From the IMG/VR virus record IMGVR_UViG_3300008114_000019, positions 1 to 64,000 of that record: a stretch of 64,000 nucleotides of DNA; one strand, 5' to 3'. This stretch comes from a virus. The translations under genes were made by a program, and so were the position numbers. The notes below the pieces were generated by a model, which saw nothing but the letters and a program-made list of their open reading frames with translations, did not search any database and had not been told where the DNA came from. This document shows, piece by piece, positions 8,302-63,875 of the stretch; within the stretch, counting starts at the first letter, position 1, and every line of letters begins with the position of its first letter.

Positions 8302-8303
8302 TA

Positions 8304-9017: not shown

Positions 9018-9028
9018 TATTGACAACC

Positions 9029-9568: not shown

Positions 9569-9574
9569 ACTACT

Positions 9575-9580
9575 ATTATA
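9575..9580 (-). promoter_or_regulatory. -10 TATAAT for leaderless array copy E
   Basis: TATAAT with six bases (AGTAGT) to ATG 9568 would place transcription start on the A of the start codon. There is no TG extension; a weak TTAGAA lies 17 bases upstream. It overlaps the stop codon of the preceding nuclease gene. Confidence 0.4.
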
Positions 9581-9860
9581 CCCCATCCGTTAATTGTTCT
9601 AATATATCCATCTCAATAATTGCTAACCTTGTTTTATTATTACCTTCTCCCAAAACTACAACTATTGCTGGATCCATGTTTTTCTTAATGGCATCAGTTA
9701 CAGCCTTAGCCCAAACCTCTTTATTTAAAGTAAAAGACTTTGAAACTTCTTTAAAATCAATTACAAAATTATTCCAAGAAGCATCACCTTTTGTAGTGTT
9801 TCTTCCAGAGTTCTTGTGCTGTTTAGCACCTATTCTTTTACTTTCGCTCTTCTCGCTCAT
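9576..9860 (-). CDS. Small PD-(D/E)XK (Hjc-like) nuclease
   Basis: 94 residues. Basic N-terminus (SKRIGAKQHKNSGR), then TKGDAS with the first acidic residue (about 26), and FVIDFKE with the D-x-K pair (about 35-37). A W-A-K-A helix and an IVVVLG strand follow. This order matches minimal Holliday-junction or VRR-type nucleases. It lies just downstream of recA and a small Cys-rich protein, consistent with recombination. Catalytic assignment is by motif only. Confidence 0.55.
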   Translation of the reverse strand: MSEKSESKRIGAKQHKNSGRNTTKGDASWNNFVIDFKEVSKSFTLNKEVWAKAVTDAIKKNMDPAIVVVLGEGNNKTRLAIIEMDILEQLTDGV

Positions 9861-10020: not shown

Positions 10021-11020
10021 TAAGTTTATTCTTAATCATATCTTGAAGATCAAGATCCTCTCTTACTCTGTCTATAAATGCTTCCCTACCCTGAATTTTT
10101 GTACCATCATCTAGTTGATACCAAGCCCCTGTTCTATTTATGATTCCTGCATTTTCTGCAGTATCAACAAGGTCACCTATAGCATCTACACCAAGACTAT
10201 CCCCTCTAAAATAAAAGTCATACTCTCCAGATTGAAAGCCTGGTGATGTTTTTGAAAATTGTAGTTCCCACCTAATTTTTCTACCAATTTTTTCTTCTAT
10301 TAACTTGTCACCAATTTTAATTTTACCTTTAAGTGCTTGGTTGTCTGATTCAGAAGAGAAAAGTTTAATAACACAGGAAGAATAAAACTTTGTAGCCTGT
10401 CCACCTGATGGTTGTTGACTAGTATACATTGCATTAATATTATTTCTTGATTGAGAAATTAGTACTAACAATGTTGGCTTTACCTTGTTGTTTGCATAAT
10501 TTAACATTTTCCAAGCATTACTAAAGTCACGAGACTCAGCACCAATTTGTTTTGTATTTTCTAACGCCTTCATTTCATCAGTATCTTTTTCAAAATAAAT
10601 AGCAGGAAGCATAGATGTTATTGAGTCAACAACAATTAAATCAACTCCAGCATTCATTAATCCAACACCAACGTCAACCATATCGCTGATAGTTCTTGCT
10701 TGTGAGTAAATAAGTTTTTCTGGATCTACGCCAAGTGACTTAGCCCAATCTTCAGAGTATGACATTTCGGAATCAATCCAAGCACAAACCTTACCTTCTT
10801 TTTGTGCAAGAGCAATCATTTGTAAACACATAGATGATTTTGCAGAAGATTTACTTCCCCAAATTAAAACTTGTCTGCCATATGGAAGACCACCACCCAA
10901 TGCACGATTCAAACCAAAACTTGGTGTAGGCTGATATTCAAAATTAATTCCAACTCCATTACCAAGTCTTTTGCGTAACTTAGGATCTAACTGTGACAAT
11001 ACTTCTTCTACGCTAACCAT
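10013..11020 (-). CDS. recA: RecA-like recombinase
   Basis: 335 residues with the RecA core: P-loop region at 55-62, Walker B LIVVDSIT at 128-135, and a QSRNN segment near the L1/L2 DNA-binding region. It would pair single-stranded DNA for recombination-dependent replication and repair. The P-loop reads GSKSSAKS rather than the usual GPESSGKT: the Gly before the Lys is Ala. T4 UvsX also lacks this Gly, so activity is likely retained. It overlaps the polymerase gene by eight bases and is probably co-translated. The N-terminal helical domain of bacterial RecA is short here. Confidence 0.92.
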   Translation of the reverse strand: MVSVEEVLSQLDPKLRKRLGNGVGINFEYQPTPSFGLNRALGGGLPYGRQVLIWGSKSSAKSSMCLQMIALAQKEGKVCAWIDSEMSYSEDWAKSLGVDPEKLIYSQARTISDMVDVGVGLMNAGVDLIVVDSITSMLPAIYFEKDTDEMKALENTKQIGAESRDFSNAWKMLNYANNKVKPTLLVLISQSRNNINAMYTSQQPSGGQATKFYSSCVIKLFSSESDNQALKGKIKIGDKLIEEKIGRKIRWELQFSKTSPGFQSGEYDFYFRGDSLGVDAIGDLVDTAENAGIINRTGAWYQLDDGTKIQGREAFIDRVREDLDLQDMIKNKLSV

Positions 11021-14000
11021 TGATATCCTCCAAAATTACGGTTCCGTCTTTTGTCTTACCTAAAGTAAATTTATATGCATGCCCTTCTTCTAACTTCATA
11101 TATGCTTGTGCAAATGATGTTGGAAATACCATGACTGAATGTAAATCTCTTGATGTATCTGCTAATGTTAGTGATGCCATTTTTTTACCTGCTTTTGTTA
11201 TTCTAGGTTTAAATGATACCACATACATCTCTTCTTCTGTAAAAGGTAGTTGTTTATAATTTAAAAACTTAACCAAAGCATTTGTAGAACCTTTAATTTG
11301 ATCTACTGGGACTGCAGATAAAATCCTATTATCATTAACAAGTATTAAATATGTTTGTCCAGTTTCTATGGTAGTCTGCTCTTCATCAAATATTCCAACG
11401 CTACCAGTTTTATCTAAAACTTCAACTCTGGACCAACCTTTACTTCTTTTAATATTCTTTACCATTCCCATAATTACAAATGATCCCTTTTCATCATAGT
11501 CTTCTATGTCTTTAATAAAAGCATGATAATGTGCTGGAACTGTAATATTAAACTCTGGTAAATTTAAAATTTCATATAAGTTGTGACGAATATCTTCATC
11601 GTTTCTTGGATTATCTGGAAAAGTTGCGGCACCAATTAACTTTAATGCATTGAGTGCTCTACTGTTTACACCATTACCTTTAGTAAAAGTAAACTCTTCT
11701 AATTCTTTATATGAATTAAATGGTCTAGCATCAATATATTTTTTAGCAATATTGTCTGATATATATTTAATAGCAGATAGTCCAAATCTAATCCCCTTGC
11801 CCTCAATTTTAAAATCTATGTCTGAATCATTAATATGTGGAAGTTTAACAGGAATACCCATTCTTTTTGCTTCAATCAAATATTCAGTACGAGTATCTTT
11901 GTTGCTTTCATTTTTAAGTAAAGCAAACATAAACTCAAGTGGATAATAGTATTTTAACCACGCTGTCCAATACGAGAGCGTAGAATAAGCAACCGCATGA
12001 GACTTGTTGAACGAATATCCCGCATGTGCTTCAAAGTCATGCCATAGATCACGAGCAACGTTAGGAGCAACATACTTAGAAGCACCTTCAACAAACTTTT
12101 CTTTAAAAACATCAAACTCCCTTGCATCTTTCTTTTTACCAATAATTTTTCTAACTTTGTCTGCATCAGCCATTGTCATGCCGCCAAGATGTACGCAAGC
12201 CTGCATAACTTGTTCTTGATACAGAATACATCCATAAGTATCGGATGTAAATTCTTTCATTACTTGATGAACATATGAAACATTTTGTTTACCATGTTTG
12301 CGAGCCAAATAATCTTTACCAATAGTATTCATAGCACCTGGTCTAACTAATGCGTTAGATGCTGCAAGTTCGTTTAAATTCTTAACGCCCATCTTAACTA
12401 ATAGATTGGTGTATGGTGTTGCTTCACATTGAAAAACACCTTTTGTATAGCCATCAGAAAGCATTTCATATACCTTAGAATCTTCCATATTAATTTTTAA
12501 TGGATCTATATCTACATAATGATTTTGTTTAATCATACCTATAGCATCTTTAATAACGCTTAATGTTTTTAAACCAAGTGCATCTATTTTAATTAAACCA
12601 ATTCTCTCTGCTTCTTCCATGTCAATGCCAACAACTGGAATTCTTTCATCACTTCCTGGTGAAGATCTTGTTTCTAATGGTGCATATCTAAATATTGGAT
12701 TTTTACTTGTTACAACACCTGCAGCATGAATACCAGTACCACGAATACGTCCACGTAACTGTTCTCCGTAAATCTCAACCTCTGGATATTTTTCTCTAAA
12801 CCATTCTGTTGTTTTTGAAGTACAATATTCATCCCACGTATCTACTAACTTTAAAACCTTGTTTACATCTGATAGAGGAATGTTTAATACTCTTGCAACA
12901 TCTCTAACAACACCCTTATCTTTAAACTGTAAAAATGTAGCAATAGATGCAACATGTCTATACTGTCTAACTAGATAATCTTTTACTTCGTCACGACGTG
13001 AATCTTGAATATCTGTATCAATATCTGGAAAGTCATTACGTTCTGGATTAATAAACCTAAAGAAGAGTAATCCATGTTTAATTGGATCAATGTCTGTAAT
13101 ATTTAAAGCATAACATAAGAGTGAGCCAGCAGAAGATCCTCTACCTGGGCCTACCATGATACCTTCTTTTTTAGCCCAGTTAATCATACTTTGCACAACC
13201 AAAAAGTATGGACCAAACTTCTTATCTTTAATTACCTTCAACTCTTCATTAAGTCGTTCCACATATACAGCATCGTCTGACAAACCCTTATCTCTCAAAC
13301 CCTGCATTGCAATTTCTTTTAATTCTTTATCTGGGTTTCTATATTGAACTGGTAATAGGTCTAAACCATCTTGTAGGTCATAGTCTTCTACCTTATTGGC
13401 AATCTCTATAGTGTTGGAATATATATCTTCTCTAAATATACCCTGCTTTTCCATAGCAGACTTAATCTCTTCATAACTTAATAAATGTATGTCAAACTTA
13501 TTAAATGTTATTTGTCTATCCTTGCCATATAGATAATCTAAACGCTCCATCATATCTTTATGTTTTTTAGATTTTTCGTATGTATGATCTTTCTCTATCT
13601 TGGCATGAGTATTTAGCAATAATTTAAATTCTTGTACTTCCCTTTGTTCTTTACAACTATGATGACAGTCTGGAGTAACTACTACCTTTACACCAAACTC
13701 ATCAGCAAGTTCAATGAGTTGTTTATTTATTTCAGCAGGATTATGTGGCATTACCTCAATATAATAATCATCTTTAAATGTATCTTTAAACCACTCTATA
13801 TATTTTTTTGCTACAGCAAAGGCATTTTCTTCTAAGGCTTTAACAAGCACACTGCTTGGACAAGCAGATGTTACTATAATACCTTCTGAATATTGCTTTA
13901 ATGTTTCAAAATCAAATCTTGGCTTTTTAAAATATCCCTCAGTCCAAGCGATTTCATTAATCTTATTTAAATTTTCTAAACCAACTTTATTTTTAGCGAG

Positions 14001-14285
14001 AAGGACTATATGGTTATAGACTAAATCAAGTTGACCGTCTCTCTCAGACTTGTCTCTTGTATCAAATCTATCTTGACACATATAGCCTTCTACGCCAAGA
14101 ATAGGCTTAACGTTCTTTGCTTTTGCACCTCGATACAGTTCTCTATGCCCAGATAAGGTTCCGTGATCTGTAATTGCAATTGCTTGCATACCCAAATCAA
14201 CTGCACGGTCTATATATTCTTCTGGAGTAGCAACACCATCAAATAATGAATAGTGTGTGTGAACGTGTAAGCCTACATAACTCAT
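11013..14285 (-). CDS. dnaE: DNA polymerase III alpha subunit (C-family, DnaE type)
   Basis: 1090 residues, near full length for DnaE. The N-terminal PHP domain (HVHTHYSLFDG near 7-17, ITDHGT near 38-43) keeps its metal-binding histidines. The palm has GPGRGSSAGS at 379-388 and the catalytic PDIDTD at 420-425. A C-terminal OB-fold (FVIMGMVKNIKRSKGW followed by a VEVLDKTG strand) is at about 965-1010. It replicates phage DNA, probably with host clamp and loader since none are seen here. Start ATG 14285, three bases after the SSB gene. Confidence 0.95.
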   Translation of the reverse strand: MSYVGLHVHTHYSLFDGVATPEEYIDRAVDLGMQAIAITDHGTLSGHRELYRGAKAKNVKPILGVEGYMCQDRFDTRDKSERDGQLDLVYNHIVLLAKNKVGLENLNKINEIAWTEGYFKKPRFDFETLKQYSEGIIVTSACPSSVLVKALEENAFAVAKKYIEWFKDTFKDDYYIEVMPHNPAEINKQLIELADEFGVKVVVTPDCHHSCKEQREVQEFKLLLNTHAKIEKDHTYEKSKKHKDMMERLDYLYGKDRQITFNKFDIHLLSYEEIKSAMEKQGIFREDIYSNTIEIANKVEDYDLQDGLDLLPVQYRNPDKELKEIAMQGLRDKGLSDDAVYVERLNEELKVIKDKKFGPYFLVVQSMINWAKKEGIMVGPGRGSSAGSLLCYALNITDIDPIKHGLLFFRFINPERNDFPDIDTDIQDSRRDEVKDYLVRQYRHVASIATFLQFKDKGVVRDVARVLNIPLSDVNKVLKLVDTWDEYCTSKTTEWFREKYPEVEIYGEQLRGRIRGTGIHAAGVVTSKNPIFRYAPLETRSSPGSDERIPVVGIDMEEAERIGLIKIDALGLKTLSVIKDAIGMIKQNHYVDIDPLKINMEDSKVYEMLSDGYTKGVFQCEATPYTNLLVKMGVKNLNELAASNALVRPGAMNTIGKDYLARKHGKQNVSYVHQVMKEFTSDTYGCILYQEQVMQACVHLGGMTMADADKVRKIIGKKKDAREFDVFKEKFVEGASKYVAPNVARDLWHDFEAHAGYSFNKSHAVAYSTLSYWTAWLKYYYPLEFMFALLKNESNKDTRTEYLIEAKRMGIPVKLPHINDSDIDFKIEGKGIRFGLSAIKYISDNIAKKYIDARPFNSYKELEEFTFTKGNGVNSRALNALKLIGAATFPDNPRNDEDIRHNLYEILNLPEFNITVPAHYHAFIKDIEDYDEKGSFVIMGMVKNIKRSKGWSRVEVLDKTGSVGIFDEEQTTIETGQTYLILVNDNRILSAVPVDQIKGSTNALVKFLNYKQLPFTEEEMYVVSFKPRITKAGKKMASLTLADTSRDLHSVMVFPTSFAQAYMKLEEGHAYKFTLGKTKDGTVILEDING

Positions 14286-46261: not shown

Positions 46262-46270
46262 ATTTTATCA
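46262..46270 (-). promoter_or_regulatory. Extended -10 promoter TGATAAAAT
   Basis: Overlaps the hydroxylase stop codon and faces ATG 46246, which has TAGGAG in between. One mismatch to TATAAT. Confidence 0.4.
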
Positions 46271-46798
46271 CACAATGCGTGTAAACCAACGAGGTAATGT
46301 AAACCTTGTTCCTTTAACTATTGGTCTAACACCATGAACAAAATTTGCATTGTCTGGAAAACATAGCAAATCTCCAGGTTCTGGTTTAAAAGACATTTCA
46401 TATTTTGGAAAGTATATGTCTCCACCTTGATACTCATTATTTAAATAAACCAGAGTTGCTATATCTTGTGGCCTAGAAGCATCAAAATGCTCATGCATTC
46501 CTCTGCCCTCAACAAATTTTGCAATATGTGTTTTTTCATTAATAAAGTTTTCAAACTTAGAGTTATAGTTATTTAAAACAAAATCATAAACCCTAAATGC
46601 AACATTTTGAATTACATCAAGAATAGCAGGATCCAACTCTTTTATTTCGTGATATGTATGAACTGTAAACTCTTGTTCATGATTGCCATAATTAGAGAAT
46701 AGTTCTTGATGATTTTTAGCATAATCTGTTACTAACTTTGCCTCTTCAGGGTTCATAAAACCTTTAACATACTTAATCTGAGATTTAAAATCTTCCAT
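46268..46798 (-). CDS. Prolyl 4-hydroxylase-like 2OG-Fe(II) oxygenase
   Basis: 176 residues with a complete classical motif: MHEHFD (His 104, Asp 106), then LVYLNNEYQGGDIYFP, the PGDLLCFP turn, distal His 155 and Arg 165 in VKGTRFTLPRW. This is the standard P4Hc arrangement needing iron and 2-oxoglutarate. Substrate could be a proline or lysine in a virion or host protein. Encoded two bases after the reductase gene. Confidence 0.88.
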   Translation of the reverse strand: MEDFKSQIKYVKGFMNPEEAKLVTDYAKNHQELFSNYGNHEQEFTVHTYHEIKELDPAILDVIQNVAFRVYDFVLNNYNSKFENFINEKTHIAKFVEGRGMHEHFDASRPQDIATLVYLNNEYQGGDIYFPKYEMSFKPEPGDLLCFPDNANFVHGVRPIVKGTRFTLPRWFTRIV

Positions 46799-46800
46799 AT

Positions 46801-48831
46801 TTAGCCTATCTTTATTTCACAAACATCTGTAGTGCAGTATGCCTCACCTTGTGCTTCTAGATTTTCTACTCCGTCGTAGATAGCATCCCAGTTAATTTTA
46901 GCAATCTTTCCTACATAACTATTATACTCTTCTTCAGTAATTTCAGTATATGGTTGTTGAGGGTATACAGTGTTTCCCATAGGTAAAAATGATACCGCTT
47001 TCAGTTGTCCCTCGTACATGTGTAAGGCTGGAGCAACATATTTAGACTCTGTTTCTTTGTCAAAAGACAAGGTTACAGATACACCATTATCTGACCAATA
47101 TTTTTGAGCAGTTGCTGCAAGAGCAATTTTTTCAAAAAGACTAACATCTTTTTCTGCTCTTTCGTGTTCTGAAGCAATTGGAAAATAAACAACCTTTGTA
47201 TTTGCAGAAACAACATCATCTTCTATTTTATATCCAGCAGCCTTAAATAGATGAACCATAGGATCAGATTCACCAAATCTAATTGCTCTCATAAAAAATT
47301 TACCACCTGGACCCCAATGAACTCCTGGAGTTGCTCCAGAAAGAATACTTACGCTACCTGATGGTTTAACTGTTGTAACCCTTATTGATTCACGAACACA
47401 TAACCATTCTGAATATTGGTGATCATATTTTCTAATATTTGAATATCCTTCATCCATCCACTCACGAACTGTTGGCAAACCATGTTTATCTGAGAATGAT
47501 GCAATACCAGTAAGAGAGGTTCCAATTCTTCTGTTACGTTGCATAATTCCATTTGTTTGTTGCCAATGTGTTGGAACTAGTGTTACAGTTTTGCCATAAA
47601 GATATGCAAACTTTAGTGTTCTTAAAAAGTCTTCTTTATCTTCATGTCTATTTAAATGAACTTCAACCAAAGTACATAGTTCATATGATTCTAATGGTTG
47701 TTCAGCACATGGATTAAAGCCCATTACTCTATAGTCTTTTCCATCTGCAGGATCTTTTAATCTACCATAATTTCTTGCTACATCTAACCATATAAAACCT
47801 GGTTCTCCATTATTAACTATTAGGTCTACATAATCTTCATATTTAGTTCCTACTGTTGCTGATATGGAGTTATTAGACATCCATGCCCAACCTGGATTTT
47901 CTGAATCAAAAGAATTTCTTTCTGGAAAAACCTCTGGATTTTTTAAATTAATAAAATCTTTATCTCCAGCAGATCCTAATGCAAGTGTTGCTGATCTACG
48001 AACGTTTCCTGCAACCACACATGTTCCAATTAAGTTTACAATATCTACAATTGCTCTAGAGTCTAGTTTTTCCCCTATCCTATTACCAATAACTTTATTG
48101 ATTTGATCATGTAATTTAATTAATGGTTCTGGTCCTGATGCTACCCCGCCAAATCCTTTAATAGGTGCACCAAATGGTCTTATCAAATCATAATTAAATT
48201 TTTGTTTTGCCTGACTTTGTCTCAAATATGAGTTTAGTAATAATCTAACAGATTCTACCCAACCTTCTCTAGTATCTGGAATTTCATAAGTTGATTCAAC
48301 TTCTGATGGTGCATATATAGAAAATTCTTTATCTTGTCCAACGGTATCAAAGCCAACTCCAATACCCAACATGAGAGCATCCATAACCCATGCAAACAGT
48401 GCTCCTGGGTCATTTCTATCTAGGTCCTTAGTAGATACCATGGCACAGTTTTGAAGGGCTGCAGAGTTCCTTTTTTCCATTGTCATAGGGGTTCCAAAGG
48501 CCCACATACCACGACCTGGTGGTGTCCATTTAAGGTTAAACATACGATCAAATGCTTCTTGAGCAGACTTTTGTGCCTTATAGTCATTCCATGGTAATCT
48601 ATTTTCTTTTGCATGATTTTTTTGTACTGAGTACATGCCCTCGATTACACGCTTACAAACCTCATACCATCTTTCTTTAGTTCCATCTTCCTTGACACGA
48701 GAATAAGTTCTTATAAAAGTAATCTCTCCTAAAGAGTTATTTCCAGCATCACTAAAACCAAATGGACTGTCTATAACTGTATATTTTGCTATAAAGTCCT
48801 CTGGAAGTTTAAAACTAAAAAAGTCTGACAT
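46801..48831 (-). CDS. Class II (adenosylcobalamin) ribonucleoside-triphosphate reductase
   Basis: 676 residues. Matches the monomeric Lactobacillus leichmannii-type enzyme: Cys 129 (ALQNCA), N-P-C-A-E at 373-377 with radical Cys 375, redox partner Cys 386 (eleven residues later, the same spacing as in the model enzyme), and the C-terminal CTTDVC pair (Cys 666 and 671). It makes deoxynucleotides without oxygen dependence but needs B12 from the host. Start ATG 48831 with AGGAG; an extended -10 promoter and an inverted repeat lie upstream. Confidence 0.93.
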   Translation of the reverse strand: MSDFFSFKLPEDFIAKYTVIDSPFGFSDAGNNSLGEITFIRTYSRVKEDGTKERWYEVCKRVIEGMYSVQKNHAKENRLPWNDYKAQKSAQEAFDRMFNLKWTPPGRGMWAFGTPMTMEKRNSAALQNCAMVSTKDLDRNDPGALFAWVMDALMLGIGVGFDTVGQDKEFSIYAPSEVESTYEIPDTREGWVESVRLLLNSYLRQSQAKQKFNYDLIRPFGAPIKGFGGVASGPEPLIKLHDQINKVIGNRIGEKLDSRAIVDIVNLIGTCVVAGNVRRSATLALGSAGDKDFINLKNPEVFPERNSFDSENPGWAWMSNNSISATVGTKYEDYVDLIVNNGEPGFIWLDVARNYGRLKDPADGKDYRVMGFNPCAEQPLESYELCTLVEVHLNRHEDKEDFLRTLKFAYLYGKTVTLVPTHWQQTNGIMQRNRRIGTSLTGIASFSDKHGLPTVREWMDEGYSNIRKYDHQYSEWLCVRESIRVTTVKPSGSVSILSGATPGVHWGPGGKFFMRAIRFGESDPMVHLFKAAGYKIEDDVVSANTKVVYFPIASEHERAEKDVSLFEKIALAATAQKYWSDNGVSVTLSFDKETESKYVAPALHMYEGQLKAVSFLPMGNTVYPQQPYTEITEEEYNSYVGKIAKINWDAIYDGVENLEAQGEAYCTTDVCEIKIG

Positions 48832-48920: not shown

Positions 48921-49064
48921 TTAGTGAAATGACATTGCTGTATGTTGTTTTGGACTACAACGTTCACATAATGTATATGTGTTTTTAGTATATGGACATG
49001 TTGTACTTTTTATTTTATGACCAACAATAAAACAAACTATTTTATTTAAGGTAGAGGAACCCAA
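48921..49064 (-). CDS. Tiny zinc-ribbon-like protein, non-ATG start
   Basis: Up to 47 residues from a TTG at 49064. The clear part is CFIVGHKI, then TTCPYT and LCERCSP, giving Cys-x4-His and later Cys, Cys-x2-Cys, the usual look of small phage zinc-ribbon proteins. It overlaps the upstream gene by 19 bases. No ATG or GTG is available before the motif; the only canonical-type start is TTG with GGAAG about twelve bases upstream, and ATA 49040 is an alternative. It fills the only long gap in this region. Confidence 0.55.
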   Translation of the reverse strand: MGSSTLNKIVCFIVGHKIKSTTCPYTKNTYTLCERCSPKQHTAMSFH

Positions 49065-49675
49065 TGTTGTAATTCACTTCCACTCATATACATAACTGGA
49101 GAGATATCATAAGCAATAGTAATTCTTGGTTTATCAAATGGCCAAGGTCCTATTCCATGAGGATGACCAGTTTCTGATAATATTGCTCTATTATTTTTAT
49201 TAATGTTTTGAGTTGAATCATTATCATGACCACCAATTTTGTAATAAGTAAATGATGGTTCAGCATCTACACAATAATAGCCATGAAAATTTGGTGCACC
49301 AGTTCCACCCAAATGATCATGATAATGAGTTGATTCATTTATTGGTGGTTCTGCAATTCCATCGGTGTTAAACCAACCTTGAACCATGTATGATTGTTTT
49401 TTATAGTCAATATTATAATACTCACAAGCCTCTACTGTTAATTCTCTAAGTGCAGAAAATAACTTATGAATTTGTGGATTATAACATTGAAAAATATTAA
49501 ATTTTGTTCCTAAATTATGAACACCACCAATATTGGCAGCAAACTCTTTAGAAACTTTTGGATAAATACCATCAAATAAATCTTTTTCAAGTTTTAACAA
49601 ATATCTTGAAAGTTGTGTTAAATCATTATCAAGATGTCTTTCAAAAAATTTATGTGCTGGTTTTATAGTTATCAT
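49046..49675 (-). CDS. Putative beta-helix oxygenase, H-D-H / H-P-H type, copy 2
   Basis: 209 residues, paralogue of the next gene upstream. Shared motifs: KFFERHL at the N-terminus, QGWFN near 99, HYHDHLGGTGAP near 117-128, FHGYYCV, NRAILSETGHPH near 163-173, and PRITIAYD. The clustered His residues and the Arg in the closing strand suggest a cupin-fold iron enzyme, possibly 2-oxoglutarate dependent. The exact H-x-D triad is not standard, so this is tentative. ATGA overlap with copy 1. Confidence 0.55.
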   Translation of the reverse strand: MITIKPAHKFFERHLDNDLTQLSRYLLKLEKDLFDGIYPKVSKEFAANIGGVHNLGTKFNIFQCYNPQIHKLFSALRELTVEACEYYNIDYKKQSYMVQGWFNTDGIAEPPINESTHYHDHLGGTGAPNFHGYYCVDAEPSFTYYKIGGHDNDSTQNINKNNRAILSETGHPHGIGPWPFDKPRITIAYDISPVMYMSGSELQHWVPLP

Positions 49676-50337
49676 ATCAACGGTATCCAGTGTTGTTCAT
49701 GATCTTTGCCAACTTCTTTTAATTCACCCAAAGTTACAATATCATAAGCAACTGTAATTCTTGGTCCATCCCAATCCCAATCACCTTGTGCATGAGGATG
49801 TCCCATTTCTGAAAATATAGCACGGTTATCAATATTTTTATTTTCAACATCTTTACCAAAAACTCTGTAATAAGTTGATGATGGTTCTGCTTTTACGCAA
49901 TAGTATCCATGAAAATTATTTGGAGCACCAGTATGTCCATGATCGTGCCAATCTAATTTTCCTTTTTTCTTATGATTAATATTGAACCATCCCTGTAACA
50001 TAAATCTTTGTTTTTCAAAATCTATTTCATAATATTCGCATGCTTCTTTGGCCATGTCTTGAATACTTTTATATAATTCATATATTCCATCAATATGAAA
50101 TTGAAATACGTTATATTCTCTCCACTTAACTGTAGAAACACTGCCAGATTCTTTCCAAAAGTCTTCTTTTGTAACTGGCGTAATACCATCTAGTTCTACT
50201 CTTTCAATGCTTTGATATCTATCAGTTAACTCACTTGCTAATAAATCTAAATCATTATTTAAATGTCTTTCAAAAAATTTATGTGGCTTAATTGATTGTT
50301 GAATACCACGTAATTCTGGTGGTGGACCTTGTCTCAT
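49672..50337 (-). CDS. Putative beta-helix oxygenase, H-D-H / H-P-H type, copy 1
   Basis: 221 residues. LDWHDHGHTGAPNNFHGYY (His 131, Asp 132, His 133) and MGHPHAQGDWDWDGPRITVA (His 180, His 182, Arg 193) are shared with copy 2. The N-terminus KPHKFFERHLNNDL is also shared. Such proteins are common in aquatic phages and usually lie near structural genes; substrate unknown. TAGGAAAA precedes the ATG and TGCTACAAT lies further upstream. Confidence 0.55.
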   Translation of the reverse strand: MRQGPPPELRGIQQSIKPHKFFERHLNNDLDLLASELTDRYQSIERVELDGITPVTKEDFWKESGSVSTVKWREYNVFQFHIDGIYELYKSIQDMAKEACEYYEIDFEKQRFMLQGWFNINHKKKGKLDWHDHGHTGAPNNFHGYYCVKAEPSSTYYRVFGKDVENKNIDNRAIFSEMGHPHAQGDWDWDGPRITVAYDIVTLGELKEVGKDHEQHWIPLI

Positions 50338-50386: not shown

Positions 50387-51640
50387 TTAATCTGGTATTT
50401 CTGAAGGGGAGTAGTCGTTATAATGAACTAGTCCACCTGCTATAACTAAACCGATTGGATATCTTCCAAAACTATAAACAGTTCTAGTTTCATTAACAAT
50501 TTCAACACTTTCAATAACAACTAGTGAATCTCTTGTTATTATTTTATCTCCAGGCTGTATATCTCTTGAAGATATAAATTGATAAAGTCCATTTTTAATT
50601 ACAAACATGTCTTCTAATAAAGAAAATCTCATATCTGGATTGTTGTTAAACATAACAGTCTCATGTACTGTTGTTGGTGTAATCTTAGTTACTTCTGCTT
50701 CTAATTCTCTGTAATTTGTTAAATTACCTTTCTTTTTCCATAGAACAATTTTAAATAGATCTCCAACAGGCATTTCTTCAAATGCTTTTACTATTAACTT
50801 GTCTCCAAGTTGAATATCTTTTGCTTTTTTATTTCCAGTTGTTGTAAGAACTGGAGCATCTTCGTCTACACAATATGTAGTTGGTGAAAAACCAAATACT
50901 CTAAATGGAGAGAATCCAAATACTCTGAAAGGTGAGAAACCAAACACGTTGAATGGTGAAAAACCGAATACGTTAAATGGTGAGAAGCCAAATACTGTAA
51001 AAGGTGAAAAACCAAATACACCAAAAGGTACAAAAGAAAATGTTGTTGTTACTTGTGCTGAATAATCTGAAAATTCTGAATCTCCGTTAGCGTTAGTTGC
51101 TTCAACTCTGTATTGTTGTGCTGTTCCTGCTTCTTGTGCTACTGTTGCACTTGTTGTTGTTCCTGTGTTTCCTGATTTACCGTCGTTTGATTCCCAATAA
51201 TAGTTTGTAATTACTTTTCCACCGTTTGCTGGTGCAGTCCATGAAATTTGATCTTGATCAGCATTTGGTGATGATGCACTTGGTGCTGCTGGTTTTGCTG
51301 GAACAGTTGTTGCTGTAATTGAGTTTGATGCTGCTGATGCATCAGATGTTCCATAAGCATTTGTAGCAGTAACTGTAAAAGTATAAGATGTGTCAGATTG
51401 TAAACCTGTCACTGTGATAGGAGATGATGATCCAGATGCTGTATAACTACCTGGAGTTGAAGTAACTGTAAAAGAATCTGCAGCATATGTAGGATCTGCT
51501 GTAAACGTTACTGTTGCTGCACCATTATTAAATGGTCTGGCTGTTCCAACATCTGTTGCTGTGCCAATAGTTGGTGCTTTTGGCATAAGAAAGTCGTTAG
51601 CACCTTGTGATCTCTTACCACTTTTTTTATTTACAGCCAT
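50387..51640 (-). CDS. FN3 - FGFSPF repeat - Hint domain virion protein
   Basis: 417 residues. Two fibronectin III-like domains (about 22-112 and 113-199), then an octapeptide array F-G-F-S-P-F-x-V (201-253, six FGFSP cores), and a Hint (hedgehog/intein) domain from Cys 257. Block A CVDEDAPVLT and LGDKLIV are clear. The block B T-x-x-H equivalent reads LLED, so His is lost. The end GLVIAGGLVHYND has HYN followed by Asp instead of a Cys, Ser or Thr. This suggests cleavage at most, not splicing. Shares array and Hint with the gene at 60070. Confidence 0.8.
   Translation of the reverse strand: MAVNKKSGKRSQGANDFLMPKAPTIGTATDVGTARPFNNGAATVTFTADPTYAADSFTVTSTPGSYTASGSSSPITVTGLQSDTSYTFTVTATNAYGTSDASAASNSITATTVPAKPAAPSASSPNADQDQISWTAPANGGKVITNYYWESNDGKSGNTGTTTSATVAQEAGTAQQYRVEATNANGDSEFSDYSAQVTTTFSFVPFGVFGFSPFTVFGFSPFNVFGFSPFNVFGFSPFRVFGFSPFRVFGFSPTTYCVDEDAPVLTTTGNKKAKDIQLGDKLIVKAFEEMPVGDLFKIVLWKKKGNLTNYRELEAEVTKITPTTVHETVMFNNNPDMRFSLLEDMFVIKNGLYQFISSRDIQPGDKIITRDSLVVIESVEIVNETRTVYSFGRYPIGLVIAGGLVHYNDYSPSEIPD
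50880..51040 (-). repeat. 24-bp coding repeats, octapeptide array of first Hint protein
   Basis: Tandem 24-base units encoding FGFSPFxV with x in the order G, T, N, N, R, R. Neighbouring units differ mostly at synonymous positions, so the protein repeat appears to be under selection. Confidence 0.85.
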
Positions 51641-51674: not shown

Positions 51675-53405
51675 TTATGCAGTTAAATCGCCGTATACGA
51701 CCCAAGTATCTGCTGCTCTTTTAAACAGGGTAGCAGATGACCATTGAGTACGTAATTTAAGTCCAGGTGTGGCATTAATTGTTGAAGAACTGTCTGGTGC
51801 TATTGTTACTTGACCTGACCCAGTTTGTAAAATATCAATTGATGTTCCAATTGGAAAATCTACAACATTGTCTCCTGGTATGGTTAATGTCATTGGATTA
51901 TTAGCATTCATTTCAATCAAACTATCTCTTTCTGATAACGCAGATAGTGTATAATTTGATGTTTTTTGAATGATAGGTGTACGTGAAGGAACTGCTTCTT
52001 TTGTTTGTGTACCGTCTGTAAATACGATACCATTTGCAGATGCAGTAATTGCTCCTGTAGCACTTATTGAATTTGCTTCAAGTGCTAATACTGCTAAGGT
52101 GTCTAATGATCCTTCACTAAAGTTAACTGTAGTTGCTGGTTCTGTTGTAACTCCGTCAAATAATTTCCATTTGCCGTCTGTAACATCTTTTACGATACCA
52201 GAATGTTTTTGTGTTCCATCATTGTAAGAAACAACAACACCCATATCTGACACATTATTAGCATTTGTATGTCCAAGTTGTAACAATGTATCTTCAATTT
52301 GAATTTGTGTTGCAGATACTAACACATTACTTCCATTAACTACAAAATCTCCGTCAACTGTTAGATTTTGATCTATTGTTACGTTTCCAGTAAAATCTGC
52401 TCCAGATAGTGAGGCTAGATTTCCAAGAGTTATGGCAAGATCTGTAATTTTATTTTGATCAATTGTTCCTGATATAGAATTATTTGTAACAGAGTTATCA
52501 AGTGGATTTCTTGCATCAGAAAGACGTGCATCATCTGTAAATACTATAGCCAGGGTATTTGTAATACCGTGAACATTAGAGGTATCAGATTCGTGATTGC
52601 TTAAATCTGTAAGTGTAACTAATGTTGCTGTATTTGATATACCATGAACATTTAATGTTTCTAGGTTATGATTTGAAATTGCATTATCTGCATAGTCTTC
52701 TAAATCTATAATTGCATTTGCAATAGATTGTGAAAGAGACTCTTCTACTCCATCAGTATATGATTGTGCATTTCCTAAAGCAACGGCAGCAACATTATCG
52801 GCATATGCTTCTGCTGTTGTTATAGCATTTGAAATTTCACCTTGTAGTCCTGAAACAGCACAAGCAATATCATTTGCAACAAGATTTGCTAATAAGTCTA
52901 TTTCATCTGCGACATTGTTTGCTAAAGTATTTATATTGTTATCTGTGTATTCATTAGCGGCATCTAAACTACTATTAATGCTATTTGCTAAGTTTAGATA
53001 AAAATCTCCATCATTATTAATGGCATTTGCCAATTCTGCAAGGGTATCTAGTATAAGTGGTGCATTATTTGTTAAATCTGCTATAGCATTAGATACTGCA
53101 TTTTCTACATCTACAATTCTAGCAATTGTATTAGATATTTGACCATCTGGTATTACGGTATTAGCATTTAATGTGGCAACACCATTTGCTACACCTTTTT
53201 CAGTTAATAAAATGTAATCGTCTAGGTTTCCGCCTAAATCTTCTATATTTTTAAAGTAGGGAAGGTCATCCCAGTGTGTGGTTTGATCACCAATTTTAAA
53301 TTGACCTGTATCTGTTTCAAAACCAATTTCTCCAGAGCCTAAAATAGGATTAGCATTGGACCATTGTTCAGCAGTTCCTCTGCGTTGTAACATCCTTGTT
53401 GCCAT
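51675..53405 (-). CDS. Long tail fibre with phage tropism-type N-terminus
   Basis: 576 residues. The start RRGTAEQWSNANPILGSGEI, followed by TGQFKIGD and WDDLPYF, is the common N-terminal fibre domain (hyaluronidase/major tropism determinant type). Residues 100-270 are a long coiled Asn/Ala helix region. The C-terminal about 90 residues (PIGTSIDILQTGSGQVTIAP and DTWVVYGDLTA) recur in the protein at 60976. Host binding or virion fibre. Strong AAGGAG site. Confidence 0.8.
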   Translation of the reverse strand: MATRMLQRRGTAEQWSNANPILGSGEIGFETDTGQFKIGDQTTHWDDLPYFKNIEDLGGNLDDYILLTEKGVANGVATLNANTVIPDGQISNTIARIVDVENAVSNAIADLTNNAPLILDTLAELANAINNDGDFYLNLANSINSSLDAANEYTDNNINTLANNVADEIDLLANLVANDIACAVSGLQGEISNAITTAEAYADNVAAVALGNAQSYTDGVEESLSQSIANAIIDLEDYADNAISNHNLETLNVHGISNTATLVTLTDLSNHESDTSNVHGITNTLAIVFTDDARLSDARNPLDNSVTNNSISGTIDQNKITDLAITLGNLASLSGADFTGNVTIDQNLTVDGDFVVNGSNVLVSATQIQIEDTLLQLGHTNANNVSDMGVVVSYNDGTQKHSGIVKDVTDGKWKLFDGVTTEPATTVNFSEGSLDTLAVLALEANSISATGAITASANGIVFTDGTQTKEAVPSRTPIIQKTSNYTLSALSERDSLIEMNANNPMTLTIPGDNVVDFPIGTSIDILQTGSGQVTIAPDSSSTINATPGLKLRTQWSSATLFKRAADTWVVYGDLTA

Positions 53406-57501: not shown

Positions 57502-58155
57502 CTATTCTACACCATGGTATATTTCATTTTTAAAAGGTCTGTCATGTAACCACGTAACTATTGCATATTTTGTTCCTGATGTAACTGGATAAGCCTTATG
57601 ACGATATGCATAATTTGAAGGAAACAAAATTAGCATTCCAGCAGTGGGTTTAATCGTTATATTAAAGTTTACAAATTCAATTTGACCACCTTCATAATCA
57701 TCATTAAGGTATAAAATTGCTGACAAGGATCTTCCAGAACCAGTTCCACCATCATAATGAGAATGATATTCTTGACCAAAAGAATACTTTAACATATTAT
57801 ATTCTTCATGCCATAACTTACCCTCTACCCCATATCTTTTGTTATAATCTATAGTGGTAGAAAGAAGAAGCATATACATTTGATTATGAATTTTTTGTGC
57901 TAATGAACTTCCTAAGTTTGATTGATAAGTAATACCCATATTGTAATTAGTTCTATGATTTTGATCATATCCTACACCCATAGTTTCTGCTCTAGACCAA
58001 TGCAAATCACTGTTTGGATTAGAACATTCTCTTTCTACATCTATAATAGTTTGTAACGAATCTTTCCAAACATCATTATATATATCTATACATCCTGCTA
58101 TTGTTTTGCTTGGTTTTATAACTCCAGGGTATAAACCGTTAATCATTTCTGACAT
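57502..58155 (-). CDS. Prolyl 4-hydroxylase-like 2OG-Fe(II) oxygenase
   Basis: 217 residues with a full catalytic set: EYHSHYDGG (His 133, Asp 135), AILYLNDDYEGGQIEF, distal His 186 in YRHKAYPVTSG and Lys 196 as the 2-oxoglutarate-binding base, as in collagen-type prolyl hydroxylases. It is the best candidate for hydroxylating Pro or Lys in a phage fibre, especially given the glycosyltransferase next to it and a collagen-like gene 5.7 kb away. Confidence 0.87.
   Translation of the reverse strand: MSEMINGLYPGVIKPSKTIAGCIDIYNDVWKDSLQTIIDVERECSNPNSDLHWSRAETMGVGYDQNHRTNYNMGITYQSNLGSSLAQKIHNQMYMLLLSTTIDYNKRYGVEGKLWHEEYNMLKYSFGQEYHSHYDGGTGSGRSLSAILYLNDDYEGGQIEFVNFNITIKPTAGMLILFPSNYAYRHKAYPVTSGTKYAIVTWLHDRPFKNEIYHGVE
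57504..57509 (-). promoter_or_regulatory. -10 TAGAAT for leaderless glycosyltransferase
   Basis: TAGAAT lies six bases before ATG 57497; TG is shifted one base from the usual extension. It sits at the end of the hydroxylase gene. Confidence 0.3.
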
Positions 58156-59453: not shown

Positions 59454-59479
59454 ACATGACACCTACCAGGGTGTCATGT
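59454..59479 (+). promoter_or_regulatory. Hairpin at predicted 5' end of lysozyme mRNA
   Basis: Perfect 10-bp stem ACATGACACC / GGTGTCATGT with a six-base loop and TTTT following, between the predicted transcription start and the AGGAGG site at 59486-59491. It could be an attenuator, an operator or an mRNA-stabilising structure. Confidence 0.65.
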
Positions 59480-59497
59480 TTTCTTAGGAGGAAAACT

Positions 59498-60073
59498 ATG
59501 AAAAAAGATAAAAAATTTTTAATAGGATTACTCGCAAGTCTTGGGTTACTTTCAGTATTTATGAATATTTCTAATGCTCAAGGTGTTGAAACAAACCCCA
59601 AAAATGATCAATATACAACATTTACCGCTGAAGCGGTTTTTTTGCTTTCTAGACCAGATCACCTAGACAAGCCATCTAGAGATAACGTAAGGGTTCTTGC
59701 TGAATATCAAGATAAGGGCCAACTTACAGATATAGAATTAAAAACTTTACTATCTGCCTGTGGTTTTGAGGGTAAAAACCTAATAGAGGCTTGGGCTATT
59801 GCTAAAAAAGAGTCAATGGGTAACGCTTTGGCCTTTAATGGTAATAGTAAAACTGGAGATAGGTCTTATGGCTTGTTTCAAATCAATATGATTGGTGCTT
59901 TAAATGAAGATAGAAAAGAAAAATATAATTTAGAATATACCAGTCAACTTTTAAATCCATCAATTAACTGTCAGGTTGCTTATATAATGAGTGATGGTGG
60001 AAAAGATTGGTCTCCTTGGAAAAATATAACTCCTAGAACCAGAGAGTTCATGTACCAGTTTCCAAAAGATTAA
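59498..60073 (+). CDS. Exported lysozyme-like endolysin
   Basis: 191 residues from ATG 59498 (AGGAGG upstream). Residues 1-27 form a signal peptide (basic KKDKK, then a hydrophobic core ending SNA). The lysozyme-like or lytic transglycosylase domain has AIAKKES with catalytic Glu 105, then SYGLFQINMIG (123-133) and NCQVAYIMSDGG. It cuts peptidoglycan after export, so lysis may rely on Sec rather than only a holin. An in-frame ATG at 59456 would add 14 basic residues. The stop overlaps the convergent Hint gene by three bases. Confidence 0.87.
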   Translation: MKKDKKFLIGLLASLGLLSVFMNISNAQGVETNPKNDQYTTFTAEAVFLLSRPDHLDKPSRDNVRVLAEYQDKGQLTDIELKTLLSACGFEGKNLIEAWAIAKKESMGNALAFNGNSKTGDRSYGLFQINMIGALNEDRKEKYNLEYTSQLLNPSINCQVAYIMSDGGKDWSPWKNITPRTREFMYQFPKD

Positions 60074-60966
60074 TCTACTGGATAAGCATTATATACAAAT
60101 AGAGAGTCTGCAACGATCAAACCAAAAGGTTCTCTTATAAAATCGTAGACATCTCTGTCTTCTTTTACTACTTCTATTTTGTTAACAATATAACGTGGTT
60201 CATTTTCAAATTCTTTACTTTTAACTATTTCATCACCTATTTTTAATTCAGAAGAAACAATAAACATCAATTTGTTATCTCTTATTACTAAAATATCTTC
60301 TTGAGTAGAAAATCTTTTATATTGATCATCATTAATTATAATGGTTTCTAAAACATTAGTTTTTGTAACTTTTGTTACTATGGATTCTATAGTTTTATAT
60401 TCTTTATTTGTTTCACCTATCCAAGATCTAAGACCCTCATGATTAGTTACTGGCAAATCATCAAATGTTCTAGTAATTAAGATATCTCCAACAACTATAT
60501 CTTTTGCTAATGCATATCCTTCTTTAGTTAATACTGGTGTGTCTTGATCTATGCAATATGGGCTAGGGACATAAGTGGTTGGTGAGAATCCAAAGACTCT
60601 AAATGGTGAAAATCCAAATACGTTAAAAGGTGAAAATCCAAAAACGTTAAAAGGAGAAAATCCAAATACTGTAAAAGGAGAAAATCCAAATACTCCAAAT
60701 GGTGTAAAACTAAACTGTCTAACAGTTAAATCAACAGTTGATTCGTAATCTGCTGGAGTAGTTACTGCTGGATTTTGTTCAACAATTAATCCATCATTTG
60801 CTAACTCTGATGGTTCTCCAGAAACTGTAGTTGTAACATTTCCTAAAGAAAAACCTTCTGAAACTACATCTAATTGAGCCTGTGCACTTGTTCTTCCAAT
60901 AAAGTTAGGAACTAGTTTCATTCCTTTTGCTACTACATATTTAACTAATTTTCCAAACAAAGCCAT
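60070..60966 (-). CDS. PASTA - FGFSPF repeat - Hint domain virion protein
   Basis: 298 residues. A PASTA-like domain (about 18-83; VPNFIGRTSAQAQ then IVEQNPAVTTP), which in other proteins binds peptidoglycan fragments, is followed by the FGFSPFxV array (85-129, five cores) and a Hint domain starting at Cys 138. CIDQDTPVLT and VGDILI are clear. Block B has TQED in place of T-x-x-H, and the end reads LFVYNAYPVD. The N-terminal domain differs entirely from that of the FN3 version, showing modular exchange. Confidence 0.8.
   Translation of the reverse strand: MALFGKLVKYVVAKGMKLVPNFIGRTSAQAQLDVVSEGFSLGNVTTTVSGEPSELANDGLIVEQNPAVTTPADYESTVDLTVRQFSFTPFGVFGFSPFTVFGFSPFNVFGFSPFNVFGFSPFRVFGFSPTTYVPSPYCIDQDTPVLTKEGYALAKDIVVGDILITRTFDDLPVTNHEGLRSWIGETNKEYKTIESIVTKVTKTNVLETIIINDDQYKRFSTQEDILVIRDNKLMFIVSSELKIGDEIVKSKEFENEPRYIVNKIEVVKEDRDVYDFIREPFGLIVADSLFVYNAYPVD
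60580..60714 (-). repeat. 24-bp coding repeats, octapeptide array of second Hint protein
   Basis: Tandem 24-base units with variable residue order G, T, N, N, R, one unit fewer than in the 50387-51640 gene. The order of variants is conserved between the two genes. Confidence 0.85.
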
Positions 60967-60975
60967 GATAATCTC

Positions 60976-61626
60976 CTATGCGATCAAATCGCCGACTAGA
61001 AGCCAGGTGTTTGTATCAAATTTAAACAAGGATGCACCTGAATACCTTGCTGCAATAGATCTATTTCCATTTTTACTATTTAAAGTAACTCCTGTATCTG
61101 GAACAAATGTAACAGAGCCAGTGTTCATTCTAAATACATCTATTTCTGAACCTATTGGAAAAGCAATACTAGAATTAGGTGGAATTGTTACTGTCCAAGT
61201 TCCTGTAGAATCAAAAGTTATACTTTGACCAATATCACTTAATGTTAAACTATAGTTTTGTGTTCCGCTACCAGCCTGTTTATTAAAAGTAACCAATCCA
61301 CCATAAGATATCCAGTTTGTTCCATTGTAAAATTGTAAATCGTTAATTGCTGCACCACCAGCAGTTTGTCTAACAAAACAAACAGTCCCTCTTACTGGAG
61401 AAGTTAATGCCGCATCTCTTGCTGCAGGATTTAAATAATTATTTACTCCAGCCTTTGCTGTAATTACTGCATTAGTATCTGAAAATGTAACATTACTTTG
61501 AAATTCATGTGTTCCAGACCAAATATAGTTTGCAGCAGTGTTCGTATTTCCACCAATTGCATAAAATGTATCTGTTTCTTGATCATAAACATATGCTGTT
61601 TTACCGCCAGTATTTAGTGATGCCAT
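60976..61626 (-). CDS. Fibre protein with shared C-terminal domain
   Basis: 216 residues. DQETDTFYAIGG near the start, an ARDAALTSPVRGTVCFVRQ strand and the C-terminal block FPIGSEIDVFRMNTGSVTFV to LVGDLIA, which aligns with the end of the 51675-53405 fibre. So two fibres share this tip domain. TAATG overlap with the mini-gene upstream. Confidence 0.7.
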   Translation of the reverse strand: MASLNTGGKTAYVYDQETDTFYAIGGNTNTAANYIWSGTHEFQSNVTFSDTNAVITAKAGVNNYLNPAARDAALTSPVRGTVCFVRQTAGGAAINDLQFYNGTNWISYGGLVTFNKQAGSGTQNYSLTLSDIGQSITFDSTGTWTVTIPPNSSIAFPIGSEIDVFRMNTGSVTFVPDTGVTLNSKNGNRSIAARYSGASLFKFDTNTWLLVGDLIA

Positions 61627-63146: not shown

Positions 63147-63875
63147 CTATGAAACTGATACGTATATTTTTTTTAGTGCTAAATTTGTAAGAAAATCTGA
63201 TTTAGCATAAGGTCTACAAAAGTTAAACCACATTTCTTTATTTTCAATATGAATAGTTTGATCAACTGTTAAATCAAATATTCCTTGATATTTAAATGAA
63301 CCAACCATAGTTAGAACTGACCTGTCTATTTCGGGGTATACGGTAGCAAACCAAAATTCTGTATTGTTGACAAAAGTCTCTAATGAAAAGTTATAGGTTA
63401 ATCTAACAATTGAGCCAATCTCTAAACTTCTAAAGGTAAAAGCCCTAGACTCTTCATTATAAAAGGTGTTGCAATTTGATGGTAAAAATGAATGGTTTTT
63501 TAAGATATTTTTCTTATCAATATATAAATCATGCCAACCATTTTCACCTTTAGATGGATCTATACTAAAAACTCTAGAAGATGTATTTTCATAACTAGCC
63601 CAACCTACTTGTTGTTTATAAACTGGAAAATAACTTTCTCCATTTTTACCGTCTTTACCATTTTTGCCATCTTTACCATTAGATCCTGGTTCGCCTTTAT
63701 CACCTTTATCTCCTTTAGGACCTTGTGTGCCTTGTGGTCCCATTGGTCCTTGTGGGCCTTGTGCACCTGTTGGTCCTGGAACTGGTAAAAATTGTAATTG
63801 TGGGGTTTCTTGCTCAATGGCATTAATTTTTTGTTTTTCTTGGATAGGAAATCCCATGCTACGTGATATTGCCAT
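63147..63875 (-). CDS. Collagen-like fibre protein
   Basis: 242 residues. After a 33-residue N-terminus come sixteen unbroken G-x-y triplets (about 34-81) including GPK, GDK, GDK and GEP, so Lys and Pro occupy the Y position modified in animal collagen. The C-terminal 160 residues form a beta-rich globular domain (GSIVRLTYNFSLETFV). Probably a trimeric triple-helical stalk with a binding tip. GGAGG site before ATG 63875. Confidence 0.8.
   Translation of the reverse strand: MAISRSMGFPIQEKQKINAIEQETPQLQFLPVPGPTGAQGPQGPMGPQGTQGPKGDKGDKGEPGSNGKDGKNGKDGKNGESYFPVYKQQVGWASYENTSSRVFSIDPSKGENGWHDLYIDKKNILKNHSFLPSNCNTFYNEESRAFTFRSLEIGSIVRLTYNFSLETFVNNTEFWFATVYPEIDRSVLTMVGSFKYQGIFDLTVDQTIHIENKEMWFNFCRPYAKSDFLTNLALKKIYVSVS

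Follow-up and report, generated by a model that had tools for sequence, protein, structure and literature searches.

What does an intein-like domain do at the end of a putative phage structural protein? The question is raised by the virus record IMGVR_UViG_3300008114_000019 of IMG/VR, of which positions 1 to 64,000, called here the window, were analysed. A gene on the minus strand of the window (50387-51640) encodes P0001, a protein of 417 residues composed of a fibronectin type III (FN3) head, an array of repeats rich in phenylalanine and proline (F/P array) and a C-terminal Hint domain. An initial annotation, which left the strand unstated, had described it as a virion protein with these three parts. 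The open reading frame (ORF) is real and its parts were borne out, the place of P0001 in the virion being suggested by the gene neighbourhood and by relatives. The answer that we favour, and to which we give an even chance, is that the Hint is a C-terminal autoprocessing domain, which would act through the Cys or Ser at its position 1 (Cys1/Ser1) and then be removed, leaving the head plus the array.

The Hint domain covers residues 257-417 (50390-50872, minus strand) and starts at Cys257, its position 1, exactly where the initial annotation had placed it. Its AlphaFold2 model, a single chain like all the structure models used here, has a predicted local distance difference test (pLDDT) score of 92.1 and a predicted template modelling (pTM) score of 0.86. 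The top Foldseek match of this model is 2lwy, a bacterial intein-like (BIL) domain (E = 4.5e-6), and VIA gave a Z score of 16.3 for 5i0a (129 residues aligned, root-mean-square deviation 2.0), 6y75 and 2lwy, these matches comprising a RecA intein, a T. thermophila BIL domain and 2lwy itself; the score against hedgehog (1at0) is 15.3. The model aligns with Hint structures over almost its full length, and the structure prediction that had been proposed as a check on the domain returned a Hint fold. No S74 chain is present among the structure matches listed, which by itself excludes nothing. At the sequence level, a profile of 23 Hint domains has 2lwy as its first match in the PDB (E = 1.5e-4). 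Against the Pfam models Hint (PF01079), Hint_2 and Intein_splicing, P0001 reaches at best 15.7 bits, under the curated cut-off of 29.7, and Intein_splicing matches 10 of the 23 profile members (best E = 0.0033). By its predicted structure, the domain has the fold of the HINT superfamily and is nearest to BIL domains.

Cys257 is one of the two residues, Cys and Ser, that class 1 inteins carry at position 1, as given in excerpts of PMC7664689 and PMC4031507. The Thr..His pair of their block B is replaced by Ser340 and Glu343 (S340-L-L-E343), the loss of the histidine having been recognised earlier, and block G is degenerate. Near the end, Asn408 is followed by Asp409 (HYN408-D409), also as first annotated, nine residues before the end of the protein, where class 1 inteins have His-Asn, a Cys, Ser or Thr and a C-extein. 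The His-Tyr-Asn ending likewise departs from the His-Asn of type A BIL domains, which relatives such as L028 (VHNK) do possess, and only 9 residues follow Asn408 where the hedgehog Hog domain has its sterol-recognition region. For P0001, a splicing intein is ruled out by HYND and the absence of a C-extein, and hedgehog-like sterol transfer by the absence of a recognition region.

The same architecture occurs a second time in the window, in a paralogue missed by the initial annotation. P0002 (298 residues; 60070-60966, minus strand; Hint profile E = 1.3e-69) consists of a PASTA domain (residues 19-82, 60721-60912; Pfam PASTA E = 3.9e-6, above cut-off), an array closely similar to that of P0001 (residues 85-137, 60556-60714) and a Hint with Cys138 at position 1 (60073-60555), all on the minus strand. 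The Hint profile found nothing in the whole 68,067-base record beyond the Hints of P0001 and P0002. Among 26 longer related records, which were of our own choosing, 15 have two Hint matches, 7 have one (in G026, a stand-alone gene) and 4 have none (E <= 0.001).

Scans of viral contigs with four proteins of the family returned 30, 27, 80 and 79 loci, the last two from the best 80 of 192 and the best 80 of 278 confirmed matches; many of these loci repeat one contig, and some IMG/VR contigs may be fragments. The Hint profile matched 114 of 3412 distinct locus ORFs (threshold 1e-3). With ORFs open at the C-end or with fewer than 110 residues left dropped, the architecture recurs in 109 distinct phage-contig proteins, some with identical Hints and many of them close relatives. 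The Hint is C-terminal in these proteins, with at most about 50 residues beyond it, and stands directly behind repeats of several kinds (FGFSPFNV, FGFTPFGA, FFAPPG, FSPPRF), Phe/Pro-rich in nearly all.

Position 1 of the Hint carries a nucleophile in 109/109 tabulated proteins, Cys in 79 of them and Ser in the other 30. At the position of the block B His, the Cys-type domains carry Glu (36), Gln (30) or His (13) and the Ser-type domains His (29) or Thr (1), which makes 42 of 109 with the histidine. The terminal Asn varies, many copies being without it and some ending one residue past it, and neither this Asn nor the +1 nucleophile of splicing is conserved across the family. Considering that position 1 is kept and the splicing residues are lost, the first chemical step appears to have been retained and the needs of splicing given up; the earlier view that splicing is unlikely and thioester-type cleavage possible stands in both its parts. 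Two fused copies outside the table were read by eye: L216, whose Hint-like C-terminus is missed by the profile, has Ser at position 1, and L214, a degenerate copy, has neither the nucleophile nor the block B His. When 26 domains that start with Ser were aligned, all shared the block B His and a terminal Asp; these rows had been picked for their Ser start, and L034 (Ser, no block B His) was left out. The model of a Ser-type Hint (pLDDT 86.4) has a Z score of 16.5 to hedgehog 1at0. On the Hint tree, a quick one like all trees here, Cys/Ser changed once and the block B His at least nine times. The frequency of this His in Ser-type (29/30) versus Cys-type (13/79) domains was not taken as co-evolution with Ser1, because the nucleophile changed once and the Hint tree offers a single independent pair, the well-supported branches of the head tree three. 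Omega was computed for 16 pairs of relatives: that of the array is 0-0.08 in 14 of the 15 computable pairs and 0.40 in the other, and that of the Hint is 0.06-0.57 in the 13 computable pairs. By these values neither part looks to be decaying, and both are under purifying selection.

Natural forms with the Hint missing or separate bear on its role. The profile detects a Hint in 84 of 121 ORFs with an FN3 head; by eye, the other 37 comprise 18 with a Cys-rich tail, 13 that end at the array or a short tail, 3 that reach the contig end, 1 with a broken frame (L188) and the 2 Hint-like cases L214 and L216. The proteins that end at the array do so with FSPPFR, FTPR or FVPR before the stop codon, the FN3 and PASTA paralogues both end in SPPFR in G026 and both in PPNFR in G049, and the Hint-fused relative L154 reads SPPR/C near the SPPFR stop point. 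Downstream of 8 Hint-less genes no Hint remnants were found in three frames, and when 22 records encoding Hint-less proteins, most of them short, were searched over their full length, 1 contained a Hint-like match. At E <= 0.001 the profile matches nothing in the four long records whose arrays are of the FFPFFPP kind (G022-G025). The Cys-rich tails of L121, L114, L115, L116, L136 and others are short and highly variable and follow an FN3 head and an F/P array (e.g. ...CWQACPSCCGSCGC). In L188 the FN3-array part and the Hint lie in different frames (ORFs 2329-3084 and 2852-3637), from a broken gene or an assembly error.

In three contigs, which represent two lineages, a stand-alone Hint-like gene starts 8-10 bases past the stop of a PASTA gene that has no Hint of its own. 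Counting back without gaps from the conserved VGD, no Cys or Ser was seen by eye at position 1. The nucleophile is thus kept where an upstream part is attached and seemingly missing where there is none, which, in a small sample with position 1 read by eye, points to an action on the preceding bond. We consider it likely that Cys257 performs chemistry on this bond in the living phage.

Additionally, homologous domains are found in isolated phages. Jumbo phages of Erwinia, Dickeya and Yersinia carry a collagen-repeat tail protein that ends in a homologous Hint; P0007 is matched by 60 phage records, 53 of them over at least 80% of its length, several of the records being the GenBank and RefSeq versions of a single genome. 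The profile of the freshwater-phage Hints matches all six of the full-length tail proteins that were read (P0007, P0008, P0009, P0012, P0014, P0015), with E values between 3e-19 and 7e-5 when 17 sequences were searched, the match starting at the Cys in 5/6 and covering only 27 positions in P0015. P0014 and P0012 match phrog_38766 'virion structural protein', and P0007 scores 26.2 against Pfam Hint_2, under the cut-off of 28.4. These Hints have T..H in block B and VHN near the end, followed by Thr in 2 of the 3 copies read. Hint-less forms occur here as well: the Dickeya JA29 relative stops after ARNPK, without a match to the Hint profile, and the AD1 relative goes on ARNPTSSTSG/CIVF with a Hint; JA11, JA13 and JA33 match P0007 over the same first 322 residues only. 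The tail-gene region of phage NCTB (LT598654.1, 96419-103678) holds at least three Hints, two fused with Cys1 in proteins of 506 and 1304 residues and one stand-alone (153 residues), which starts past position 1 (E = 1e-11); the label reads 'putative phage tail protein, contains intein domain'. A viral-contig scan with the NCTB protein returned nothing. By tblastn against the phage collection, neither P0001 (E 1e-3) nor the L028-type protein (E 0.01) has a match, the L032- and L098-type proteins match one record in the FN3 part only, and the Ser-type L168 protein weakly matches 18 isolated jumbo phage records (7e-5 to 9e-3). Bacterial genome contigs scanned with P0006 yielded 4 loci, of which at most one is a clear relative (a 3.2-kb contig of a Chitinophagaceae bin). 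In excerpts of PMC5259590, no Hint domains are found in phage CBB; the inteins described there and in an excerpt of PMC3556154 lie in other genes. PMC7760394, on virion mass spectrometry of other Erwinia jumbo phages, contains no mention of 'hint', and PMC6143709 none of 'mass spectrometry' or 'tail protein'.

From these data we propose that P0001 would be a subunit of an appendage associated with the tail fibre, and that it would be synthesised as a precursor whose C-terminal Hint processes itself. The head (FN3, or PASTA in the paralogue) would dock onto a partner fibre, and the Hint may aid the folding or assembly of the F/P-rich array or shield it. Cys257 would attack the preceding peptide bond in an N-S acyl shift, the (thio)ester would be resolved, most simply by water, and the mature form would be the head plus the array with a free C-terminus, the Hint being shed. 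The virion location, the cleavage, the outcome by hydrolysis and the chaperone role of the P0001 Hint are what we infer; whether the overall outcome is removal rather than transfer we regard as balanced. To judge by the sequences, tail-associated proteins with such a self-clipping end domain probably occur in many freshwater phages that have not been cultured and in some giant phages that have been isolated.

Several observations weigh against removal of the Hint by its own chemistry. The main doubt on the activity of P0001 itself comes from its sequence, in the Glu that replaces the block B His usual in inteins. A conserved nucleophile is as compatible with transfer to another molecule as it is with hydrolysis, the Hint profile was built from Cys-starting domains, and the Cys/Ser exchange, being a single change on the Hint tree, counts once. 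Paralogue Hints in one genome are not significantly closer than those across genomes (7 pairs, 392/5040 permutations). The stand-alone proteins show a weak likeness to the family (E = 1.6e-5 and 9.9e-6), their hhalign alignment with it (probability 83, E = 8.7e-6) stops short of position 1, and a Ser lies one to three residues off this position in both lineages; in NCTB, the stand-alone Hint sits beside two fused Hints already present. The argument that these genes make for a chaperone acting in trans is therefore thin. Finally, the Hint-less forms could represent replacement of the function of the Hint and not its removal.

Glu343 is also the first point in favour of another alternative, a P0001 Hint that is catalytically dead or too slow and is retained as a folding, capping or binding domain. 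The stand-alone genes, which seem to be without the nucleophile, suggest that the fold may serve without cutting, and fused L214 lacks both nucleophile and histidine. Against this alternative stand the Cys or Ser at position 1 of all 109 tabulated fused copies, seemingly missing in the stand-alone ones, and the ability of inteins without the block B His to splice, according to an excerpt of PMC7664689; we hold it to be unlikely.

A covalent fate for the array, in which another molecule of the virion or host would attack the (thio)ester of Cys1/Ser1 through an amine or hydroxyl and the array would become attached or capped, is in our view unlikely. The initial annotation had raised attachment to an amine, and the mechanism would resemble that of hedgehog or of thioester adhesins. 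It makes use of the same conserved nucleophile, of a splicing outlet that is closed in many copies by the variable terminal Asn and +1 residue, and of the Cys-rich tails of some related arrays, which would offer another route to a covalent link. However, related proteins stop near the junction without a Hint; the head-plus-array form therefore needs no acyl transfer there, and linkage is not essential. P0001, ending 9 residues past Asn408, also has no extension resembling a sterol-recognition region.

That the array and the Hint form a cassette for tip exchange by recombination, with the chemistry secondary, is very improbable. In its favour, L024, which has an FN3 head, and L064, which has a PASTA head, carry Hints identical in 480/480 bases, Hint presence changed at least 10 times on a quick tree of 103 heads, with 5 changes forced by well-supported branches, and arrays are closer within than across genomes (7 pairs, 90.0 vs 83.8%, 30/5040 permutations). 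Yet L064 is one 6.3-kb contig and possibly a chimeric assembly, and the conservation of the nucleophile is left unexplained. A true splicing intein, or the relic of one passing through a structural gene, has next to nothing left to recommend it beyond the Hint fold, Cys1 and the T..H, VHN and Thr (2 of 3 copies read) of isolated phages, given the C-terminal position in the tabulated proteins, HYND in P0001, the many copies without Asn or with one residue after it, the purifying selection and the recurrence of head, array and Hint in 109 proteins.

Self-removal of a C-terminal Hint can be set beside several known systems. BIL domains (types A and B) share with the family the Hint fold, Cys1/Ser1, the absence of a C-extein nucleophile, the occurrence in variable proteins and the expected N-terminal cleavage. 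Unlike them, the family stands at the C-terminus of putative appendage proteins of phages, after a repeat of the F/P-rich or collagen type, has mostly Glu or Gln for the block B His in its Cys group, includes a group with Ser1, His and terminal Asp, and has natural Hint-less and stand-alone versions. Excerpts of PMC4031507 and PMC7765530 place BILs in variable, non-conserved bacterial proteins and leave phage virions unmentioned. The hedgehog autoprocessing domain resembles the family in its fold (Z 15.3 and 16.5), its C-terminal position and the expected use of the first acyl shift alone, whereas the family has no sterol-recognition region after the Hint. In the jumbo-phage proteins (phrog_38766) the same C-terminal Hint is found as in the freshwater family, the differences being collagen repeats (Pfam) where that family has its F/P array, a block B with T..H and an HN close to the end.

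A functional parallel would be the intramolecular chaperones of phages (S74 type; K1F, T5), which are C-terminal too. Excerpts of PMC10579305 and, for S74, PMC7824862 describe them as self-removing, with resembling stand-alone chaperones, and give the S74-type oligomers as homotrimers (PMC10579305) or hexamers (PMC7824862). The S74 domain, in contrast to the predicted Hint, has a different fold and a Ser/Lys autoproteolysis, and self-removal, described for S74, is for the Hint our proposal; the Hint would work like these chaperones, and nothing found makes it one of them. Its removal would also resemble that of the collagen C-propeptide, from which fold and chemistry differ.

The initial annotation's author knew of no described system of this form, which agrees with the open-licence PMC literature: no paper there joins a Hint domain, fibronectin type III and phage, none joins intein-like, phage and tail fiber, and none joins thioester, adhesin, isopeptide and phage tail. 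Parts of the proteins already carry database annotations, the BFVD labels being 'Fibronectin type III', 'PASTA_pknB domain containing protein' and 'Hint domain containing protein'. Intein-like domains are familiar in the roles of selfish elements, as processing domains of secreted bacterial proteins and as the lipid-transfer module of hedgehog. If our proposal is true, phage tail assembly would be a new biological job for them, phage biology would gain a second self-removing end domain besides S74, and the 'intein domain' notes on NCTB tail proteins would make sense. Tentatively, and with more doubt than belief, the Hints may form a widespread class, the second of its kind, of C-terminal assembly domains that remove themselves from fibre-associated proteins, with forms acting in cis (Cys1/Ser1) and in trans (nucleophile-less), the Glu/Gln Cys group perhaps linking the array to another molecule via a slow thioester. 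The isolated jumbo phages make self-removal testable, and the natural variation in block B (His, Gln or Glu), with the Cys unchanged, lends itself to studies of Hint chemistry without the usual histidine.

The part of P0001 that would remain after removal of the Hint starts with the first FN3 domain, residues 41-105 (51326-51520, minus strand). Pfam fn3 matches the protein in two stretches with E = 1.5e-8 and 35.2 bits, above the cut-off of 25. The second stretch falls in an FN3/Ig-like region, residues ~117-198 (51047-51292, minus strand), whose boundaries are approximate and set by eye; the best stretch of PKD_6, residues 144-192, is under its cut-off. Sequence matches of the FN3/array part in the PDB to titin and coronavirus spike chains were read as FN3 or chance. 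A third head type, in L101, L104 and L107, has tandem Cys-containing repeats (CTTSSPGAGVGNC...) followed by an F/P stretch and a Cys-type Hint. The array of P0001 comprises seven octads, residues 201-256 (50873-51040, minus strand): FSFVPFGV, FGFSPFTV, FGFSPFNV twice, FGFSPFRV twice and FGFSPTTY. The DNA pattern for GFSPF has 9 reverse-strand matches in the record, 5 in the P0001 gene and 4 in the paralogue, and the same pattern read backwards has 0. The octad copies differ in codon use, and the 56 array codons show 12-18 synonymous and 0 nonsynonymous differences in three pairs, not independent, among three close relatives. Therefore, the absence of backwards matches, the varied codons and the synonymous-only changes rule out both chance and recent DNA slippage as origins of the array.

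The gene neighbourhood is fibre-like. Directly upstream of the FN3 gene lies a tail-fibre-like gene (51675-53405, minus strand; Pfam Mtd_N E = 5.6e-11; positions 658-755 of phrog_8780), and directly upstream of P0002 a fibre-like gene of 216 residues (60976-61626, minus strand; positions 660-755 of phrog_8780), the C-terminal ~100 residues being common to both. At 111/120 distinct loci, single-linkage clustering places the upstream gene in one and the same group of fibre-like genes. A fibre-tip motif was found at 83/116 FN3 loci and 12/12 PASTA loci, and the gene that follows the ORFs with this motif encodes an array protein in 96/97; of the 33 FN3 loci without it, inspected by eye, nearly all have a terminal GDL or something close to it. 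The loci were fetched around array genes, therefore only the pairing of fibre and array is informative, and not its frequency. By its position, a fibre gene followed by an array gene recalls what we take to be a comparable arrangement, the gp37-gp38 fibre-adhesin pair of T-even phages. On the opposite strand, a transglycosylase/lysozyme-like gene (59456-60073, plus strand; SLT_3 E = 9.4e-15) adjoins the P0002 gene.

Directly downstream of the FN3 gene, two adjoining genes (49046-50337, minus strand) look by eye like 2-oxoglutarate (2OG)-Fe(II) oxygenases, with 0 Pfam families for either at E <= 0.001. The window has many 2OG-oxygenase-like genes, others being located at 46268-46798, 57502-58155 and 7013-9586, and those without a Pfam match were recognised by eye; of four window genes of this kind that were tested, two match Pfam 2OG-FeII_Oxy_3 and the two nearest the FN3 gene have no match. 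Such a cluster is present at 90/120 loci. The window further encodes a collagen-like protein (63147-63875; Pfam Collagen E = 1.5e-9), which could be the substrate of a prolyl hydroxylase. WhiB was tried as a host marker and, with one match under the cut-off, was not used. The terminase is nearest to those of Streptomyces phages (~55%), a sequence likeness that suggests an actinobacterial host. A bacterial-type DNA polymerase III alpha with a PHP domain and a B12-dependent ribonucleotide reductase are also encoded in the window (11013-14285 and 46801-48831).

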